The position numbers were made by a program, and so were the translations under genes. DNA of 64,000 nt, taken from Tomocerus qinae (Eukaryota; Arthropoda; Collembola; Entomobryomorpha; Tomoceridae). Under the pieces are notes generated by a model. That model was given only the letters and a program-made list of their open reading frames with translations, ran no database searches and was not told the origin of the DNA. The stretch is taken from assembly GCA_020055645.1 (NCBI GenBank), contig CM034547.1:37365909-37429908 (forward strand), given 5' to 3'. Shown here in pieces: positions 1,298 to 27,072 of the stretch (the first letter of the stretch is position 1; every line of letters starts with the position of its first letter).

Positions 1298-1672
1298 AAT
1301 TATGGCTAGATTTAGACAGCGGGTTATCGTTGCCTCAATTGCCCCCTCCCCCGTTGCCCCTAATTTAGCCACTTAACCTATTATATTTGTCATTTGCTTC
1401 CCGCTACTATTTCTGCCTCTTTATTGACCTAACCTAATTAAAAATAAGGATATTGGATATTACTTGCTTGTTAGGCTTTAACAGTAGAGTAGAACAGTTT
1501 ATTTTTTATTAGGTTAGGTCAAAAAAAAGGCAAAAATAGTGACGGGAGGCAATAGGGACAATATATTAAAGTAATAGGTTAAGTGGCAAAACGTGGGGCA
1601 ACGGGGGAGGGGGCAACGGGGGAGGGGGCAATTGAGGCAACGATAACCCGCTGCCTAAATCCAGCCTAAATT
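1298..1672. mobile_element. MITE-like inverted-repeat element, copy A
   Basis: This non-coding element of about 375 bp has long imperfect terminal inverted repeats. The left end reads AATTATGGCTAGATTTAGAC, then CAGCGGGTTATCGTTGCCTC and a C-rich tract; the right end is its reverse complement, finishing in CCAGCCTAAATTA. A second, inner inverted pair carries GACCTAACCTAATTAAAAAT and its complement ATTTTTTATTAGGTTAGGTC. It abuts copy B. Copy A is uninterrupted at CAATATATTAAAGTAAT, which is the site where the DIRS element entered copy C. The superfamily is not assignable; a TA or TTA target duplication is possible but cannot be separated from the AT-rich ends. Confidence 0.8.
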
Positions 1673-2710: not shown

Positions 2711-3383
2711 AAATAATTCGTCTAAGTCAACGTCAAGACAAGACATTTGGGCATGGGCTGGGCAGAAATATTATAGAAATATAATATTGAATACGTAATG
2801 TCAAATGTGTGCGGGTTAGTTTTTCAAGCTTTTAATACCTGATAACAAATTCGAACTAGAAATGGCTAGAATTTAGTCAGTTTACCTTTATTTGAAATTG
2901 TCTTCAGTTTTGACTTAAAATGAAATTAAAATTGACGAGAGGACGAAGCGTCGCAGACCAAGCATCCGAAATGAAACAAGGTGAATGGCGAAATAAAGAA
3001 TGCTAACAACAGAATAGACGGAAAAGAACTGCACGTGGGATTCAGGGAACTGCCATGCTCTCCTCGGCTTTGAAAATCATACCTTTCAAACCATAACTAA
3101 ATGGTAGCGCCCGTTATAGGTTTTCATGTTATTATTATTTGCCGTGGTTTTCATTTTTCATCACACAGCTATTTTAACAGGGTTTCTATAGTATGTTCGA
3201 GTCGAGGTCGGAGGTCGAGTCGAGGAACCCATAAACCCCATCCATAGAAATCCTATTATAGTTGATAGTTATGATTATAGTTAGTTTTAGGAACCCCAAT
3301 CAATTATTATGAATTATGACACTTGCCAACATTAGTAGTAATCTTGTAATTGGGAAATAGGTTGGTCAACTTCATCTTTTAAA
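2711..3383. other. Intergenic stretch without recognised features
   Basis: No open frame, splice-bounded exon or repeat family member was recognised here. Base composition is the same as the surrounding intergenic DNA. Confidence 0.5.
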
Positions 3384-3633
3384 AATTATGGCTACATTTA
3401 GTCAGCGGAATATCGTTGCCTCAATTCCCCCGTTGCCCCTAGTTTAGCCACTTAACCTATTATCTTTGCCATTTGCTTCCCGTCACTATTTCTGCCTCTT
3501 TTTTGACCTAACCTAATTAAAAATAAGCATATTACTTGCTTGTTAGGCTTTAACAATAAACAGTTTATTTTTTATTAGGTTAGGAGAGGCAAAAATAGTG
3601 ACGGGAGGCAATGGGGAATGGGAACAATATATT
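3384..3633. mobile_element. MITE-like element copy C, left part (interrupted)
   Basis: This is the left two-thirds of a third copy of the copy A family. It starts with AAATTATGGCTACATTTAGT, runs through the C-rich tract and the CCTAACCTAA palindrome, and stops at GGGAACAATATATT. The remainder (AAAGTAATAGGTTAAGTGGC to CCAGCCAAAATTATA) is at 8144-8231. The uninterrupted sequence in copy A joins these two halves exactly, so 3634-8143 is a later insertion. Confidence 0.85.
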
Positions 3634-3657
3634 CTGCATCATTCGACCATTGCTTTC

Positions 3658-3762
3658 ATAATAACTATTTGTATAGTCCCGCGTATACTGACTCAACCAC
3701 ACACTTTAGAGGAAACGTTAATTTCCTCTACCTTCCGCCATTACCTACGCTATTGTTTCATT
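3658..3762 (+). repeat. DIRS left inverted terminal repeat
   Basis: These 105 bases, starting ATAATAACTATTTG, are identical by eye to the reverse complement of 7966-8070. The outermost 24 bases (3634-3657, CTGCATCATTCGACCATTGC onward) are not part of the inverted pair and are instead matched in the internal complementary region. Confidence 0.9.
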
Positions 3763-4005
3763 CTTTCTTTGTGTGTGCTGAAGCAACCACGTTGGAAAAA
3801 CGGTCTACAATAAAGAAATTTTTGTAGAAAATCACAGAAGAATTATATCAAGGTTACGGTAACAGTAAGTATTAAAGTAAATTATAATTACTATAAGTAT
3901 AATTAGTATAAGTTTACTACATTGGTCACTCAGGTCACTCTTTACTCATTTATTGCATTATAATTGACCTTCGATATTATTTAGTCTTTTATCTCTAGAA
4001 ACACC

Positions 4006-5136
4006 ATGAGTGATTCTGACAGCGACAGACATAGATCAAGCCATAAGCACAAGAAAAAACATCGGCGATCAAGGAGATCATCATCGTCAACGTCTTCAAG
4101 ATGGACTGTCGACGATCTGGGGAAAAAGTTGGAGTCTCTGGTAAAAGTTGTGGACAACTTGGTTGCCAAGGATAGGTCACGGTCACCTCGGAAGCGTCAA
4201 CCATCATCCGAATTTGACCTAGTCTCTTCAGACTCCAACCAGGAAAACCGTGATGACTTACATGATAAGAAATACGGTCGTCAAGATAAGGACGTTGTGG
4301 TTTCTAATAACCAAACGGGCCATTTTGACAATAATGAGAAGGGGGATAAAAATCCTGAATCAGAGGAAGTACTGGACTTACATCCAGACTTGGATGAGGA
4401 ATCCATTCAGTTGATTGGAGGTCCAGTCAAAGTTGACAATGAATATGGTCCTAGCATCCATAATGAACTAGCAAAGCGATGGGAGAACATCACAAAATTT
4501 GGCTTGAAGGAAGACGAAAAGGAGAGATTGTTAACATCCTGCCTACTCCCATTGAACTGCAAGATGATTGGAAGTCCTAGTCTAAATAAAGAAATTGAGA
4601 TAGGAGTTTCCAATTTTGTTGCCGTCCGGGATAAAGAGCTGTCCAGTCTTCAGCGGCAATTGGGAGCCGGTATCACTGGTCTGGGACATACTCTGACCCA
4701 ATTACTGGGGAAAAAGGCTGCCCTTGCAACTGCAGGTATTGACGTAAAGAACATAATATCCGGACTTAGCGACAGTGCGTCTATATGCCTAGACTTACAG
4801 AACTCAATGTCGAAATATCGGAGGCAATTGATTTTACCGAACTTAAAAGGTAAGAGCAGACTTGTCGCTGCAGAAACTGATGTTGGAGCAAAGCTGTTCG
4901 GGGAAGATTTACCGGAAAAGATTAAATCATCTCAGGAGCTGGAAAAATTAAACGCCTCCTTTAACCGAGATCCGACTGGAAAGTCTACGAATAAGACCGG
5001 GCAACCGAAATCAAGTGGATCGAAAGACAAAAGCTATCGTTCGGTGAATTTAAACTACCGACGCCCGTTCCAAGCCAAACCAAAGCGGAACGGGCGATAC
5101 AATGCGAAACCACAGACCAAGTATCAGCGCCGTTAA
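4006..5136 (+). CDS. DIRS gag-like protein (ORF1)
   Basis: This 376-codon open frame starts at the ATG after the left terminal region. The N-terminus is rich in S, D, R and K: MSDSDSDRHRS, then a KHKKKHRRSRR tract and an S/T-rich run. Residues of about 150-290 form the better-ordered part (KRWENITKFGLKEDEKERLL, and a LNKEIEIG segment), and the C-terminal 60 residues are strongly basic. This order is typical of ORF1 in arthropod DIRS elements, where the product is taken to be a nucleic-acid-binding capsid-like protein. No zinc knuckle is visible. The frame is intact. Its 3' end overlaps the next frame, because the RT frame is open upstream of 5136. Confidence 0.8.
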   Translation: MSDSDSDRHRSSHKHKKKHRRSRRSSSSTSSRWTVDDLGKKLESLVKVVDNLVAKDRSRSPRKRQPSSEFDLVSSDSNQENRDDLHDKKYGRQDKDVVVSNNQTGHFDNNEKGDKNPESEEVLDLHPDLDEESIQLIGGPVKVDNEYGPSIHNELAKRWENITKFGLKEDEKERLLTSCLLPLNCKMIGSPSLNKEIEIGVSNFVAVRDKELSSLQRQLGAGITGLGHTLTQLLGKKAALATAGIDVKNIISGLSDSASICLDLQNSMSKYRRQLILPNLKGKSRLVAAETDVGAKLFGEDLPEKIKSSQELEKLNASFNRDPTGKSTNKTGQPKSSGSKDKSYRSVNLNYRRPFQAKPKRNGRYNAKPQTKYQRR

Positions 5137-5171
5137 ACAAAGAGGTAAGAAATATTTTTCACGCTGGAAGA

Positions 5172-6713
5172 TTGAAATATTTTGTCAAAGAATGGAAAAA
5201 TATTACAACAAACCGTGAAGTTCTATCGGCCATTCAAGGGTATAAATTACCTTTCCTGTCGGTTCCGAAACAAACGAAAGTTCCGAATGGTCCCAGTTTA
5301 AATGCCAAAGACGAAGCTAATATGCTTACGAGCTTACAAAAGCTTAAAGGTCTGGGAGCTATTCGCGAATGTGAACATGAAGAGGGTGAATTTTTGTCTT
5401 CGTATTTTTTGGTTCCTAAATCTGATGGTTCCAGTAGATTTATCTTTAATCTTAAAAGACTTAATGAGTTTTTGGAATACGAGCATTTTCAAATGTAAGA
5501 TTATCGCACAGTAAGAAGAATGATTAATCCTTTCTTCTATTTTGCCTCTATTGATATTCAGGATGCGTATCTATTAATACCAATATGGGAAGGGCATACG
5601 AAATATTTACGATTTGAGTGGAAATCTCAATTATTTGAATTTACTTGCCTTCCATTTGGGCTCAGTACGGCACCAAGGTTATTTACAAAAGTTATGAAAC
5701 CAGAGGTCTTAGGTCTCTTAGTTGCTGCTTGTCCAGCGATCCCATATGGACTATTATACACAAAGTGTTTTGAACGGCATAAGTACCTAGCTCTTAAATC
5801 AAATAATAATAACTTTCGTGCTGTATTAGAAATTAATACGGATATAGTATCAGATTTAAACTGGTGGCTAAAAAATATTTCGCAGTGTGCTCCTATACGG
5901 AATGATGCATATATGATAGAAATACACACTGATGCCTCCAAATCTGGATGGGGTGCTACTTCAGATGGGGTGAACATTCATGGTTGGTGGACGGTGGAAG
6001 AGGCATTATCTAGCATAAATGTTCTTGAATTACAAGCAGCTTACTTAGCTCTTAAATCATTTGCAAAGTCCAAGAACAAGTGTCAAATTCTCTTCCGAAT
6101 TGATAACACAACAGCTATTTCATGCATTAATCGCATGGGGTCCATTCAATATCCAGTTCTTAATAGAATTGCCAGGAAAATATGGCAATTTTGTGAAAGA
6201 CGGAGAATTTGGATTTTCGCAACATATATTTCCTCGAAAGAAAATTATATTGCGGATAAGGAATCTAGAAAGACTGATTTTGACAGTGAATGGAAATTAG
6301 ATCCCCTAAAGTACAGCTACTTAACTAGAGAGTTTAATTTCAATCCAATTATTGATTTGTTTGCGTCTTACCAAAATAGCCAATGTGAAAGGTTCATTTC
6401 ATGGAAACCTGATCCGTATTCTGAAAATGTTGATGCTTTTACGATACATTGGGGAAACGAACCAGTGTATGCGTTTCCACCTTTTTCTTTAATACATAGA
6501 ACATTAAAGAAAATACGAGATGATAAAGCGACTGCAATGGTAGTTATTCCGTATTGGAAAAACCAACCATGGTTCCCTTTATTTAAAGAACTACTGGTTA
6601 AGGATATGATTGTGCTATCACCTGATAAAAAATTGTTAACTATTCTTAACAGGAATCATCCTCTTCACTCAAACCTTTCCCTGGTGGGCGGGCTTTTATC
6701 AGCGAAGCATTAA
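5172..6713 (+). pseudogene. DIRS reverse transcriptase / RNase H / C-terminal domain ORF, broken
   Basis: One reading frame encodes the RT fingers (GAIRECEHEEGEFLSSYFLV, then PKSDGSSRFIFNLKRLNEFL), SIDIQDAYLLIPIW and the LPFGLSTAPRLFTKV segment. It continues with RNase H and a tail with IDLFAS and AFPPFSLI, which resembles the methyltransferase-like domain of DIRS1 elements. The four RNase H acidic residues are visible (D at 5931, E at 6027, D near 6102, D at 6255). Two lesions stand out. A TAA at 5496-5498 interrupts the frame, which continues directly with DYRTVRRMINPF. The palm region with the YxDD motif is missing: sequence passes from TKVMKP straight to LGLLVAACPAIPYG, an in-frame loss of roughly 100 residues. 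The frame is open upstream of 5172 (SAPLNKEVRNIFHAGRLK) and overlaps the gag end; no ATG marks the start. Confidence 0.88.
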
Positions 6714-6715
6714 AA

Positions 6716-7669
6716 TTGCAATCAACCCCTACTGAAGCCATTCAAGTCATTCTTAACTCATTGTCGGATTCGTCGTGGATACAGTATGAATCGGCTCTCC
6801 GTCAGTGGTGGGAGTTTAGTCTATCACAAAACATGGATGTATATCACCCTACTTTATCATCGGCTCTTCAATTTTTACAAGGACGCTTTAACTCTAATGT
6901 AGGATACAGTTCGATTGGAACAGCTCGATCAGCCTTATCATTGATTGTCCCAGACTTAAGTCAATCTGTAAGTTGCCACCCATTAGTCAGTCGATTTATG
7001 AAGGGTGTTGCTAGGGCAAGACCCCCAAAAGCAAAATATAATAACATTTGGGATCCAAAACCAGTATTGGACTATTTGGGTAGGTTAGAGCCTTTAGCAG
7101 AACTTTCTTTGACACAACTAAGTTACAAACTTATTGGACTTTTGTCTCTAGCTGCCGCTCATAGGATTCAGACTTTTGCGTCTATCGAAATAAGTAATAT
7201 TGTTTTTAAGCCTAATCAGGTTGAAATTTTTGTACCTAGTTTACTAAAAACAAGTAAGCCTACTAGTTGTCAACCATGTCTTTATTTACCAAAATTTGAA
7301 AATCATCCTGAATTATGTACCGTAAGAGTTCTGAGTCGGTATTTGGATGTTACTAATTCATTTCGTAATGATAACTGTAAAACTCTGTTAATTTCTCTTA
7401 ATGGAGATCGAAAATCTGTAACAACGCAAACGTTAAGTCGGTGGCTTAAGACATTGTTAAGAGAATCAGGTGTTGACACAACAGTATTTTCAGCTTATAG
7501 TGTAAGACATGCGTCAACATCCGCTGCCTCGAGAAAAGGAGTTAGTATTGATCAGATTAGAGATAGGGCTGGTTGGTCTGAAAACTCATTAATGTTTGCC
7601 AAGTTTTATAATAGACCACTTGATACCAGAGCAGGATTCAATGAAGCTGTATTTAATCTTAATGTTTAA
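6716..7669 (+). CDS. DIRS tyrosine recombinase
   Basis: This open frame of about 317 codons is the phage-integrase-type recombinase that replaces the integrase in DIRS elements. An N-terminal core-binding part (SWIQYESALRQWWEF, ALQFLQGRF) precedes the catalytic half. Catalytic candidates are the first arginine in LLSLAAAHRIQTF, a box II segment reading FSAYSVRHASTSAA, a tryptophan in DRAGWS, and the nucleophilic tyrosine in FAKFYNRP. Box II normally starts with His (HxxR); here a Tyr sits at that place. The frame starts at a TTG because it is open further upstream (GGRAFISEALKLQSTP) and overlaps the end of the RT frame, so the true start is probably by overlap or read-through. The stop at 7669 lies 101 bp before the internal complementary region. 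Confidence 0.85.
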   Translation: MQSTPTEAIQVILNSLSDSSWIQYESALRQWWEFSLSQNMDVYHPTLSSALQFLQGRFNSNVGYSSIGTARSALSLIVPDLSQSVSCHPLVSRFMKGVARARPPKAKYNNIWDPKPVLDYLGRLEPLAELSLTQLSYKLIGLLSLAAAHRIQTFASIEISNIVFKPNQVEIFVPSLLKTSKPTSCQPCLYLPKFENHPELCTVRVLSRYLDVTNSFRNDNCKTLLISLNGDRKSVTTQTLSRWLKTLLRESGVDTTVFSAYSVRHASTSAASRKGVSIDQIRDRAGWSENSLMFAKFYNRPLDTRAGFNEAVFNLNV

Positions 7670-7770
7670 ATGTTTCAAGGTTGATTAATTAACTGTGCCA
7701 TTTAATTCAGAATAAAATGTGCTTAAGCAATGTGCCTTCTGTGATGTCGTTTTGCAAGTCTCTAAACATC

Positions 7771-7893
7771 ATACAAATAGTTATTATGAAAGCAATGGTC
7801 GAATGATGCAGAATTGAACGATTAAACGAGACTTACCTGAAGGTGAAGTTTGATCGCAATTCTGCGAATGAAGACCATTGCGGAATAATAACT
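7771..7893. repeat. DIRS internal complementary region
   Basis: Positions 7771-7811 are the exact reverse complement of the left end of the element (3634-3674). Positions 7812-7893 are the exact reverse complement of the right end (8062-8143). The region is therefore the complement of the joined left and right termini, i.e. the circle junction. In DIRS1 elements this segment is thought to template completion of the ends during circular cDNA synthesis. The right half can also pair with 8062-8143 as a large hairpin. Confidence 0.92.
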
Positions 7894-7965
7894 CCCACCC
7901 TCCCAATTCATAGTCATTTTTGTAAGTACTAGAATATCCCATAAATGCAAAACGACCTTTGAAAT

Positions 7966-8070
7966 AATGAAACAATAGCGTAGGTAATGGCGGAAGGTAG
8001 AGGAAATTAACGTTTCCTCTAAAGTGTGTGGTTGAGTCAGTATACGCGGGACTATACAAATAGTTATTAT
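7966..8070 (-). repeat. DIRS right inverted terminal repeat
   Basis: Reverse complement of 3658-3762, with no mismatch seen over 105 bp. The further right end (8071-8143, ending TCGTTCAATT) is unique to this side apart from its copy in the internal complementary region. Confidence 0.9.
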
Positions 8071-8143
8071 TCCGCAATGGTCTTCATTCGCAGAATTGCG
8101 ATCAAACTTCACCTTCAGGTAAGTCTCGTTTAATCGTTCAATT

Positions 8144-8231
8144 AAAGTAATAGGTTAAGTGGCTAAACTTGGGGCAACGGAGGCAACAGGGGCAATTGAG
8201 GCAACGATATATAAATCCAGCCAAAATTATA
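8144..8231. mobile_element. MITE-like element copy C, right part
   Basis: This is the remainder of the element begun at 3384. It reads AAAGTAATAGGTTAAGTGGC through GGGGCAATTGAGGCAACGAT to the terminal CCAGCCAAAATTATA. It matches copy A at about 1570-1672 with a shorter G-rich tract. Confidence 0.85.
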
Positions 8232-25088: not shown

Positions 25089-27072
25089 ATGAGTTCAGAA
25101 GCAGATGGAAGTGGAACAGAACAAAACAGTCTACCCGTGTCTCGTGATGACTCATTTTTCAGCCTTTCATCCCCCACCACTGCTAACAATTCAATGTATT
25201 TTACTGCTGCAGAATCCCTTACAGCTGAAAACAAAAACCAGGGAGTAGACGTAGAAAATGAGGAGCAAACTGATAAAGAGAAGAATAAGGAAAGTGAGAG
25301 TGGAAGTTTAAATAATGGGGACGATAATTGGTCGTCTGCTGGAAGCTCCATGACGTTAGCCGAAGCTGAAAGCTTACAAAGCTACTCCATTTCTGAGGAA
25401 GAATATGACATTGAAAACGGAAGTATTTCTTCTGAGAATGGGATTGTCAAAGTTAAAGTAAAGGAGGATGTTTCTAAAATTTGTCATGATATTGCCGAAT
25501 CAGAAGGACTTGATTCTGAGAAAAAGGAGCTCATTTTACTTGCTGCTATTAACTGTTTTGAGGACTTAAGGACCTTAGCTGTTGCAGAAAAGGGCTTATT
25601 ATCGAGTAAATTGACATTTATTCCGTACTCTATATGCTATTTTATAACTAACTATTACTTTATATTACTATATTTCTACTAAGAGACTTGGTATAATTTT
25701 TTCAAAAACCGTATATAGATTCCTTGAGAAAGATAGTGTGGCCACTTCTGCTGAATATTTCCAAAAAGGAAATTGATCGCAAAGAGCATAAACATTTGTC
25801 CAAAAAGTTCCCTAAGGTCTCGGAGCAAATTCAGAATTTAGTAAGTAGTTTTAATACCTAAATAATAATTTTTGCTTGTACTTATATACATATACCCCAT
25901 ACCATATTATATTGGTTCAGTTGGTGACATTCTTCGTGCCTGGTTGGTTTGAGTAGCAATCGCTGTGGTAATTAAAGGTGTCATTCTAGGTGAATTTGGA
26001 CGTGGCGAGAGTTCTGAAGCGTTTTCCTCCTGGTCTTTCCGATCCACAGCAAGATCATTTGCAAACCCACTTAAATAATTTGATATGCTCTTGTTTAGAA
26101 AAAAATCCCTCTGCATATTACTACCAGGGATTCCATGATATTTCTTTGACGTTCCTTCTAGTCTGTATGTCCCAAAGTGCTCCGTATTTGTCGTACCTTT
26201 GCGTAAACCGCATGATTGAGACTTGTTTAGCCCCCTATATGGAAAAAACAATGGACACAACACACGAACTAATTCATGTCATTTTTGCGCTGATTGAAAA
26301 AGAAGACGAGGCACTGTATAAAAAAATTGTGATTGATTCTAAATGTCCCGTGGCATTCAGCCTTGCATGGGTTCTGACTTGGTTTTCTCACACGCTGCCG
26401 CATGATACAGATGTATTTCGTGAGTCAAAGTTTAAACCCGTATTTCATATTTTTATTACATATTTACACTTTTGAAAATATTTTGTCATTATTCATGTTT
26501 TGATGATGTGCATAGGTCTATATGACTTCATTTTGGGTTCCATGCACATTGTTACTCCATCATGTCTAGCTCCAGTGTTCATATCTGCTGCTCTTGTTCT
26601 AAGAAGTTCTGATGAAATAAAGGAGACCGTTAAGGAGGCCGATATTGCTCCTATGCATATGGCACTGTCGGAGTTGCCGAAAAAGTTAAATTCTCTGGAA
26701 CCGTGGCTTGCAGACAGTTTGAATCTAATGAAAAAATACTCTGGAAGTGAGGAAATGTTGATAAAACGAGCTATAGAAATCAAGGACATGCAAAACGAGC
26801 TATGGAACGAAGATACTAACAACAATAGAAACAGAAATCCGCGACCACGAAACACGAACATAATAGTATCGATAGGAAAGTTTTTGTTTGTTAAACACCG
26901 TTGGATGACAATGGCAATCGTAGCTCTTGGTGCAGCATACCTTATTCAGGCTAAGTACGGAAATAATAGTCATAGTTTAAGGGCTCTAAGGATAGCCGTT
27001 GAAAGATTTACTCCTCGTTCGTTAAAATGGGCAGTTAAAGGATTAGTTCATGACGATGACCCAGATAAGTGA
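25089..27072 (+). CDS. TBC1D20: TBC1D20, Rab GTPase-activating protein
   Basis: Exons 25089-25605, 25719-25840, 25990-26419 and 26516-27072 join in frame to 1,626 nt (541 residues). TBC1D20 is a membrane-anchored GAP for Rab1 and acts in ER-to-Golgi traffic; in vertebrates it also cooperates in Rab18 control. The TBC domain spans about 165-400: LRTLAVAEKGLLSS, KIVWPLLLNIS, the arginine-finger box NLDVARVLKRFPPG (Arg at about 220), the glutamine-finger box YYYQGFHD (Gln at about 259), SLAWVLTWFSH and RLYDFILGS. A C-terminal hydrophobic anchor begins MTMAIVALGAAYLI. The first 130 or so residues are acidic, Ser/Glu/Asn-rich and longer than in the human protein (about 403 residues in total). The start is the first ATG of the open frame. 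Confidence 0.94.

Follow-up and report, generated by a model that had tools for sequence, protein, structure and literature searches.

In the 64,000-nucleotide stretch of Tomocerus qinae DNA that was analysed (the window), a DIRS1-like retrotransposon was confirmed to lie inside a MITE copy, where it was inserted without target duplication. A comparison with some sixty other DIRS copies of this genome suggests a single, fixed position of joining within a 3-letter sequence, with one polarity, unlike what is predicted by the usual model of a double-stranded circle. The best explanation, and probably the right one, is that the tyrosine recombinase (YR) inserts a circular DIRS copy into the ATT of the MITE, with the crossover at A^TT, one-way resolution and nothing duplicated. 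The MITE sequences were located as follows.

1304..1666, + strand: MITE copy A, uninterrupted, the paralogous empty site (sequence, alignment, genome copies)
1561..1577, + strand: empty-site sequence ATATATTAAAGTAATAG in copy A, with ATT at 1565-1567 (sequence)
3390..3633, + strand: MITE copy C, left part (alignment)
8144..8222, + strand: MITE copy C, right part (alignment)

The original prediction had described two MITE copies, one of them split, and this part stood, while the bounds had to be corrected to the MITE proper, 1304-1666 for copy A and 3390-3633 with 8144-8222 for copy C. Each copy is bordered by an 8-bp duplication outside its ends, TAAATTAT at 1296-1303 and 1667-1674 for copy A and AAAATTAT at 3382-3389 and 8223-8230 for copy C. 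Copy A reads GGACAATATATTAAAGTAATAGG at 1556-1578, and copy C reads GGAACAATATATT at 3621-3633, followed by the DIRS element and by AAAGTAATAGG from 8144. When the halves of copy C were joined and aligned with copy A, the alignment was continuous across ACAATATATTAAAGTAATAGGTTAAGTGGC with zero added bases at the junction, and no bases beyond the shared ATT were needed. Moreover, the MITE was unbroken at the insertion spot and contained ATT in each of eight genome copies, namely copy A and seven more; one of them, L006, reads ACATT where the others read ATATT, with the triplet still present. As for the family as a whole, 40 of 898 first-look candidates were scored, and 40/40 matched. ATT thus occurs once at the target and once at each element end, and AAT occurs at the internal circle junction. 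The earlier proposals of a DIRS element within copy C, an empty site kept in copy A, a MITE family older than the DIRS insertion, a shared ATT and the lack of a true target-site duplication were supported. The predicted 4.5 kb of DIRS sequence was right in size, the exact span being 4,513 bp when both ATT triplets are included.

The element showed the standard DIRS anatomy in its ends and internal junction.

3631..8143, + strand: DIRS1-like retrotransposon, 4,513 bp including ATT at both ends (sequence, repeat and domain searches)
3631..3633, + strand: left-end triplet ATT (sequence)
8141..8143, + strand: right-end triplet ATT (sequence)
3658..3767, + strand: left inverted terminal repeat, 99% complementary to 7961-8070 (sequence comparison)
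7961..8070, + strand: right inverted terminal repeat (sequence comparison)
7771..7893, + strand: internal complementary region (sequence comparison)
4006..5136, + strand: first ORF, 376 aa, in the Gag position (ORF list, Pfam search)
5172..6713, + strand: pol frame with putative RT, RNase H and Dam-like domain (ORF list, Pfam, alignment)
6716..7669, + strand: YR ORF, 317 aa, Phage_integrase PF00589, open frame (ORF list, Pfam)

Within the internal region, 7771-7814 complements the left end (3631-3674) at 44/44 bases and 7812-7893 complements the right end (8062-8143) at 82/82 bases, and the circle junction is AAT at 7812-7814, the exact 3-base overlap of the two arms. These arm matches, the AAT overlap and the MITE matches are more than chance. 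Among the features of a DIRS1-like element, a tyrosine recombinase ORF, inverted terminal repeats, internal regions overlapping by 3 bp and a lack of target duplication were found.

The YR ORF matched PF00589 at E=8.4e-8 (32.6 bits, cut-off 27.1) and had 397 relatives at E<=0.001 among 2413 candidates, and no relatives were found when viral contigs were scanned with the YR alignment. No Pfam family exceeded its cut-off in the first ORF. In the pol frame, the matches to RVT_1 (E=1.2e-4, the Y(I/L)DD stretch being missing in this copy) and RNase_H (E=0.03) were under their curated cut-offs, and the Dam-like methyltransferase PF05869 after RNase H (E=2.6e-5) reached 24.4 bits, below its cut-off of 28.1. 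The frame aligned at length with relatives at about 50% identity, and the Dam-like region was conserved in that alignment. The copy is defective, as pol is interrupted by an in-frame TAA (5496-5498) and a stretch of about 103-107 aa that would hold the Y(I/L)DD motif is missing near 5703.

The element itself is ordinary. Its apparent order of Gag, RT-RNase H-Dam-like and YR is that of the DIRS1-like elements DpuDIRS3, LgDIRS1 and AcaDIRS1 as described in part of PMC3266345, with the same inverted terminal repeats, 3-bp-overlapping internal region and ATT/ATT/AAT triplets; the internal arms are 44 and 82 here and 38-89, 39-86 and 45-88, respectively, in those three elements. It differs from them in that the present copy has a stop in pol and is without the RT catalytic motif. 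Ngaro and PAT belong to the same order of YR retrotransposons, but have split direct repeats (from sections of PMC3266345 and PMC9210276) where the present element has inverted repeats.

To compare end triplets, 76 DIRS copies of the same genome were attempted, of which 65 yielded both ends and the circle junction and 62 were clean. None of the 65 showed a true target duplication that would speak against the original prediction. Ends were not resolved in ten of the 76, as the left end was missing from the fetched stretch (L049, e1, e5, e11, e14, e25), the inverted repeat was not found (L028, e15, e45) or the match was poor (L033, dropped); L031 was left out since its flanks duplicate those of L030. 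About 50 of 126 recombinase matches, chiefly fragments and more distant ones, lay outside the sample. Three messy copies were kept out of the clean count, namely, L032, whose left end is CAT as it stands or else an ATT from which a single base has gone; e36, with a damaged right end; and a second copy of the present element's family, with a small left-end deletion and a right triplet of ATG, which fits the one-sided rule described below. The triplet was placed by seeking ATT in the junction, and overlaps derived without that assumption agreed.

ATT was present at the left end in 61/62 clean copies, at the right end in 55/62 and at both ends in 54/62. All seven right deviants (L029 ATC, L040 AAT, L041 AAT, L045 AGT, L050 ATA, e3 AGT and e34 AAT) were altered at base 2 or 3, while the sole left deviant, L037 (GTT), was altered at base 1, and none of the eight clean deviant copies had a deviant triplet at both ends. 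This asymmetric exchange of the triplet had been missed in the earlier note. The polarity in the own genome alone is 7:0 (p=0.016). The section of PMC3266345 that holds Table 3 lists 26 elements with a 3-bp junction, of which 18 match at both ends, seven have an end deviation that is confined to base 2 or 3, and one has a start deviation, at base 1; some of its junctions (TTA, TAA, AAT, TTG) are not NTT. The same polarity is thus visible in that table, without comment in that section, which contains no statement of a one-sided triplet rule. When both sources were combined, base 2-3 deviants were distributed right to left as 14:0 (sign test p=1.2e-4), or 14:1 with the damaged L032 included, which would break the rule if its left end is taken as CAT. 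No paper stating the polarity was found in the open-licence PMC literature, and an earlier report may still exist.

The origin of the deviant bases was traced through empty sites. In L029, with ATT at the left and ATC at the right, the flanks joined with ATC equal two paralogs over 343/343 bases. Its uninterrupted paralogs read ATC in 7/7 cases, and in two of these the ATC is preceded by one A less; thus, the right bases of L029 derive from the target, without any duplication. For L037, a local paralog reads GTT, only 74% identical, and the assignment of base 1 to the target is based on this copy together with the published AcasDIRS1. The paralog searches for L045, e3, L050 and e34, one of which scored 40/353 candidates, yielded no empty site that spans the insertion. 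As copies with the same junction sequence as L029, L045, e3 and e34 carry ATT, the deviant triplets of these four were not inherited, and inheritance was ruled out for them. L050 has no sibling copy, and L040 and L041, both AAT, may have inherited their triplet and are possibly not independent because they belong to one family without an ATT sibling.

After insertion, the left end of the mismatch copies consists of target base 1 and element bases 2-3, whereas the right end consists of element base 1 and target bases 2-3. Therefore, the crossover separates base 1 from base 2 (A^TT) and has a single polarity, a position one base inside the triplet that was found in the clean copies, the damaged L032 being ambiguous. 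Beyond the triplet, the bases of 60 copies were unmixed, with element sequence in 600/600 at right positions -10 to -1 and in 594/600 at left positions +1 to +10. The canonical overlap of 6-8 bp was rejected, as such mixing did not occur. What is out of the ordinary is that genomic sequence alone assigns the DIRS crossover to a single phosphodiester bond, with a direction. In the preferred mechanism, a DIRS1-like circular copy would be brought by the YR to ATT within the MITE, where one productive strand transfer would take place at A^TT, the triplet acting as a short homology that docks the strand. Resolution would be one-way, and the simplest route to it would be replication that starts from a single-stranded or one-strand circle, in the manner of integron cassette insertion. 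Strand transfer at a single point, resolved one way, is the simplest reading, over symmetric double-strand exchange.

The published model, according to part of PMC3266345, is that the 3-bp junction recombines with an identical genomic triplet without target duplication, and a double-stranded circle has been proposed for DIRS in a section of PMC5633606, where the nature of the circle and the joining step are described as experimentally not fully proven. Under this canonical integration with a 3-bp ATT overlap, mismatches would form heteroduplex at both ends and segregate randomly. The 54/62 clean copies with ATT at both ends are uninformative on this point, but equal numbers of base 2-3 mismatches are expected at left and right, and the clean copies have 0 and 7, or 0 and 14 with the published table (1 and 14 counting L032). 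Canonical double-stranded integration is already disfavoured by these counts, and we regard it as improbable. The end products are the same if double-strand exchange with a 3-bp overlap is followed by strand-biased mismatch repair or strand loss, or if a flush cut is made at A^TT, and genomic sequence cannot separate these routes from single-strand exchange. Flush double-strand cuts are, however, unusual among tyrosine recombinases. The hosts of the tabulated elements include lizard, fish, frog, silkworm, sea anemone and fungus. A repair bias would have to be constant across many such hosts (PMC3266345, Table 3, in the portion cited), and these routes are rather unlikely.

For the six right deviants without an observed empty site (L045, L050, e3, e34, L040 and L041), point mutations or reverse-transcription errors could be the source. 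They do not fit the ATC in the empty paralogs of L029, the lack of clean copies deviating at bases 2-3 of the left end or the enrichment at right bases 2-3, where 7/120 were deviant compared with 6/1200 in adjacent terminal bases (Fisher p=4.7e-5). Mutation alone is an unlikely source of the right deviants, and its chance of being the explanation is small. A true 3-bp target-site duplication would be indistinguishable in copy C, which has ATT on both element sides and once in the empty site. The triplet of the left end is, however, shared by the internal region, and L029, with its target ATC at the right end only and the element's ATT at the left, refuted such a duplication, the chance of which is negligible.

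One-way exchange at A^TT may go further than the preferred mechanism states. We tentatively suggest, as something possible though hardly favoured, that DIRS inserts as a single strand, in which the YR would bring one strand of a hairpin-folded, single-stranded circle junction into N^TT and replication would complete the process, a eukaryotic counterpart of integron cassette capture. In integrons (IntI, attC x attI), the crossover triplet is 5'-AA^C-3' on the bottom strand (top G^TT), only one strand is exchanged on cassette insertion and replication resolves the product (sections of PMC4792948 and PMC2727003). The DIRS site here is A^TT, bottom AA^T, and the junction strand is predicted to form a hairpin with a paired triplet. 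The likeness does not extend to membership, as DIRS has neither attI site nor cassette array and its enzyme belongs to a eukaryotic retrotransposon. In the predicted folds of 40 junction-strand contexts, the fold z was <=-2.6 in 39/40 (-1.5 for e38), the triplet was paired in 39/40, and 35-55 nt upstream in 37/40. The hairpin was not counted in favour of a single-stranded substrate because it follows from the inverted repeats and the right extension. The tyrosine-recombinase elements described in part of PMC9345347 form a circle of one specific strand; they are likened by description only, and they differ in being bacterial, in having a pair of tyrosine-recombinase genes and in that reverse transcription is absent from that description. 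If single-strand insertion is true, published elements had already carried its signal in their one-sided end triplets. The open step of DIRS replication is now directly testable, in genomes with many young copies and by a simple assay with mismatched targets.

A weaker preference for AATTAT was observed around the triplet. Among 58 copies, A at -1, A at +1 and T at +2 each occurred in 40, where about one third was expected.

The feature in the window was confirmed as a DIRS insertion, ordinary of its kind, and it fits the description of DIRS1-like elements in the portion of PMC3266345 used here. The original prediction held that the element had entered a MITE, sharing an ATT triplet with it and leaving no target-site duplication; aligning MITE copy A with the joined halves of copy C left zero extra bases at the junction.

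Features of the window (forward-strand coordinates)
1304-1666, MITE copy A, uninterrupted
3390-3633 plus 8144-8222, MITE copy C, split by 4.5 kb
3658-3767 and 7961-8070, inverted repeats, 99% complementary
4006-5136, ORF in the Gag position
5172-6713, RT/RNase H/Dam-like ORF, interrupted
6716-7669, tyrosine recombinase ORF, open frame
7771-7893, internal region matching the left end at 44/44 and the right end at 82/82 positions, its arms overlapping in AAT

In each of the eight MITE copies fetched (copy A plus seven more) the insertion spot was uninterrupted, and six of these, copy A among them, were flanked by perfect 8-bp duplications; the duplication was imperfect in L007, and L008 was truncated at one end. 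The predicted order of events, with the MITE older than the DIRS insertion, was upheld. Zero mismatches between the element ends and the internal region suggest that the insertion is young. Copy C also carried a 7-bp insertion (AATGGGA, 3617-3623) immediately before the insertion site, absent from copy A and from the other seven MITE copies fetched; MITE copies differed by further 7-bp indels too. At 1296-2311, MITE A and MITE B (1675-2303) adjoin with a single TAAATTAT between them and TAAATTAT also outside both, and it looks as if the second MITE was inserted into the 8-bp duplication of the first.

Judged from its sequence, the window DIRS copy is defective because pol contains an in-frame TAA (5496-5498) and, near 5703, an in-frame loss of approximately 103-107 residues that all four aligned relatives have, among them the RT catalytic motif Y(I/L)DD. 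Pfam matches to RT, RNase H and Dam scored below the curated cut-offs. The repeats were intact and the recombinase frame open despite the broken pol. The recombinase had 397 relatives, and the organisms named among the 120 listed were insects such as Leguminivora, Cotesia, Plutella and Aquatica. In the left-end search, the only other copy of this family at >90% identity was at C2:44365490-44367568 (hit as L011, L013 and L017), on the same contig; it was internally deleted, lay 7 Mb away and had the right triplet ATG.

From the sister copies of the window element emerges a sharp rule for DIRS integration, one that can be checked. The 334 Mb surveyed (115 contigs) yielded 126 recombinase matches (125 of 209 candidates scored). 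Seventy-six copies were attempted, namely, 30 recombinase loci (L026-L055), e1-e45 and the second window-family copy, and both ends and the circle junction were obtained for 65. The 62 clean copies comprised 60 used in base-by-base comparison plus e40 and e41; outside this set were three messy copies (L032, e36 and the second window-family copy), ten unresolved ones and one duplicate (L031). L030 (C1:7498004) and L031 (C83:20719) have identical flanks and represent one insertion, present once on a chromosome and once on a small contig that is probably a haplotig. Triplet positions were assigned by seeking ATT in the junction, and overlaps computed without assuming ATT agreed.

The left end was ATT in 61/62 clean copies (exception L037, GTT) and the right end in 55/62, while none of the clean copies deviated at both ends.

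Right-end triplets other than ATT
ATC, L029
AAT, L040, L041 and e34
AGT, L045 and e3
ATA, L050

Across the 60 compared copies, bases -10 to -1 at the right end were identical to the element at 600/600 positions, and bases +1 to +10 at the left end at 594/600. The left flank agreed with the junction in 15-46% of copies at -10 to -2 and in 40/60 at -1. Within the triplet, agreement at base 1 was 59/60 at the left end and 60/60 at the right. At the left end, bases 2 and 3 each agreed in 60/60 copies; at the right end they agreed in 55/60 and 58/60, respectively. By these counts, target sequence gives way to element sequence between base 1 and base 2. Around the triplet, targets preferred A at -1, A at +1 and T at +2 (40/58 each), resembling the junction consensus AATTAT.

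Empty sites were sought for the deviant copies L029, L037, L045, e3, L050 and e34. The host of L029 was another MITE-like repeat, for which 40 of 172 candidates were scored. When its flanks were joined through the predicted target triplet ATC, the sequence was identical to two paralogs over all 343 bases. ATC was present in 7/7 usable paralogs of the eight fetched, two having one A fewer upstream of it; the eighth stretch was misplaced and left out. With ATT at its left end and ATC as its target, L029 took its left third base from the element and its right third base from the target. For L037 (left GTT, right ATT), a local paralog at 74% identity reads AGTTAT, giving GTT at the aligned place. 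No spanning paralog for L045, e3, L050 or e34 was among the matches returned.

Published triplets were taken as tabulated rather than from underlying sequences. Table 3 of PMC3266345 gives a 3-bp junction for 26 of 28 elements, with both ends matching in 18 of the 26. Seven elements deviate at the end, all at base 2 or 3 (AcDIRS1, AcDIRS2, AmDIRS2, BmDIRS1, NveDIRS6b, TnDIRS1a and XtDIRS2), and one, AcasDIRS1, at the start, at base 1; the section with the table carries no comment on one-sided deviation. Combining the clean copies with these tabulated elements, base 2-3 deviants numbered 14 on the right versus 0 on the left (p=1.2e-4), or 14 to 1 with L032 counted as it stands.

A symmetric double-strand exchange predicts mismatched triplet bases equally often at either end. 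Strand transfer at a single point, A^TT (between bases 1 and 2), resolved one way, fits the triplet data; cutting both strands flush, or repair with a constant bias, would produce the same sequence outcome as single-strand exchange. The proposed one-point, one-way transfer may be likened to that of integron integrase, for which the portions of PMC4792948 and PMC2727003 used describe one-point transfer between a duplex and a folded single strand at bottom-strand 5'-AA^C-3'. The DIRS junction strand was predicted to form a hairpin in 7/7 contexts (200 shuffles each; z -6.9 to -11.2). Over 40 junction contexts (60 shuffles each), the median fold z was -6.95 and the weakest -1.5 (e38); the triplet was paired in 39/40 predicted folds (exception e19), its partner lying 35-55 nt upstream in 37/40. 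Because the hairpin follows from the known repeat layout, the predicted folds indicate only that a folded substrate is available.

Five recombinase matches at 32-33% identity, in long open frames of 396-679 aa (C2:3873015, C2:9024355, C4:4851710, C2:24589021 and C1:104411399), are perhaps another group of tyrosine recombinase elements. Near the repeats, the window also contains a host gene: an ORF at 25990-26472 that resembles an exon and encodes a RabGAP-TBC domain (E=1.5e-16).
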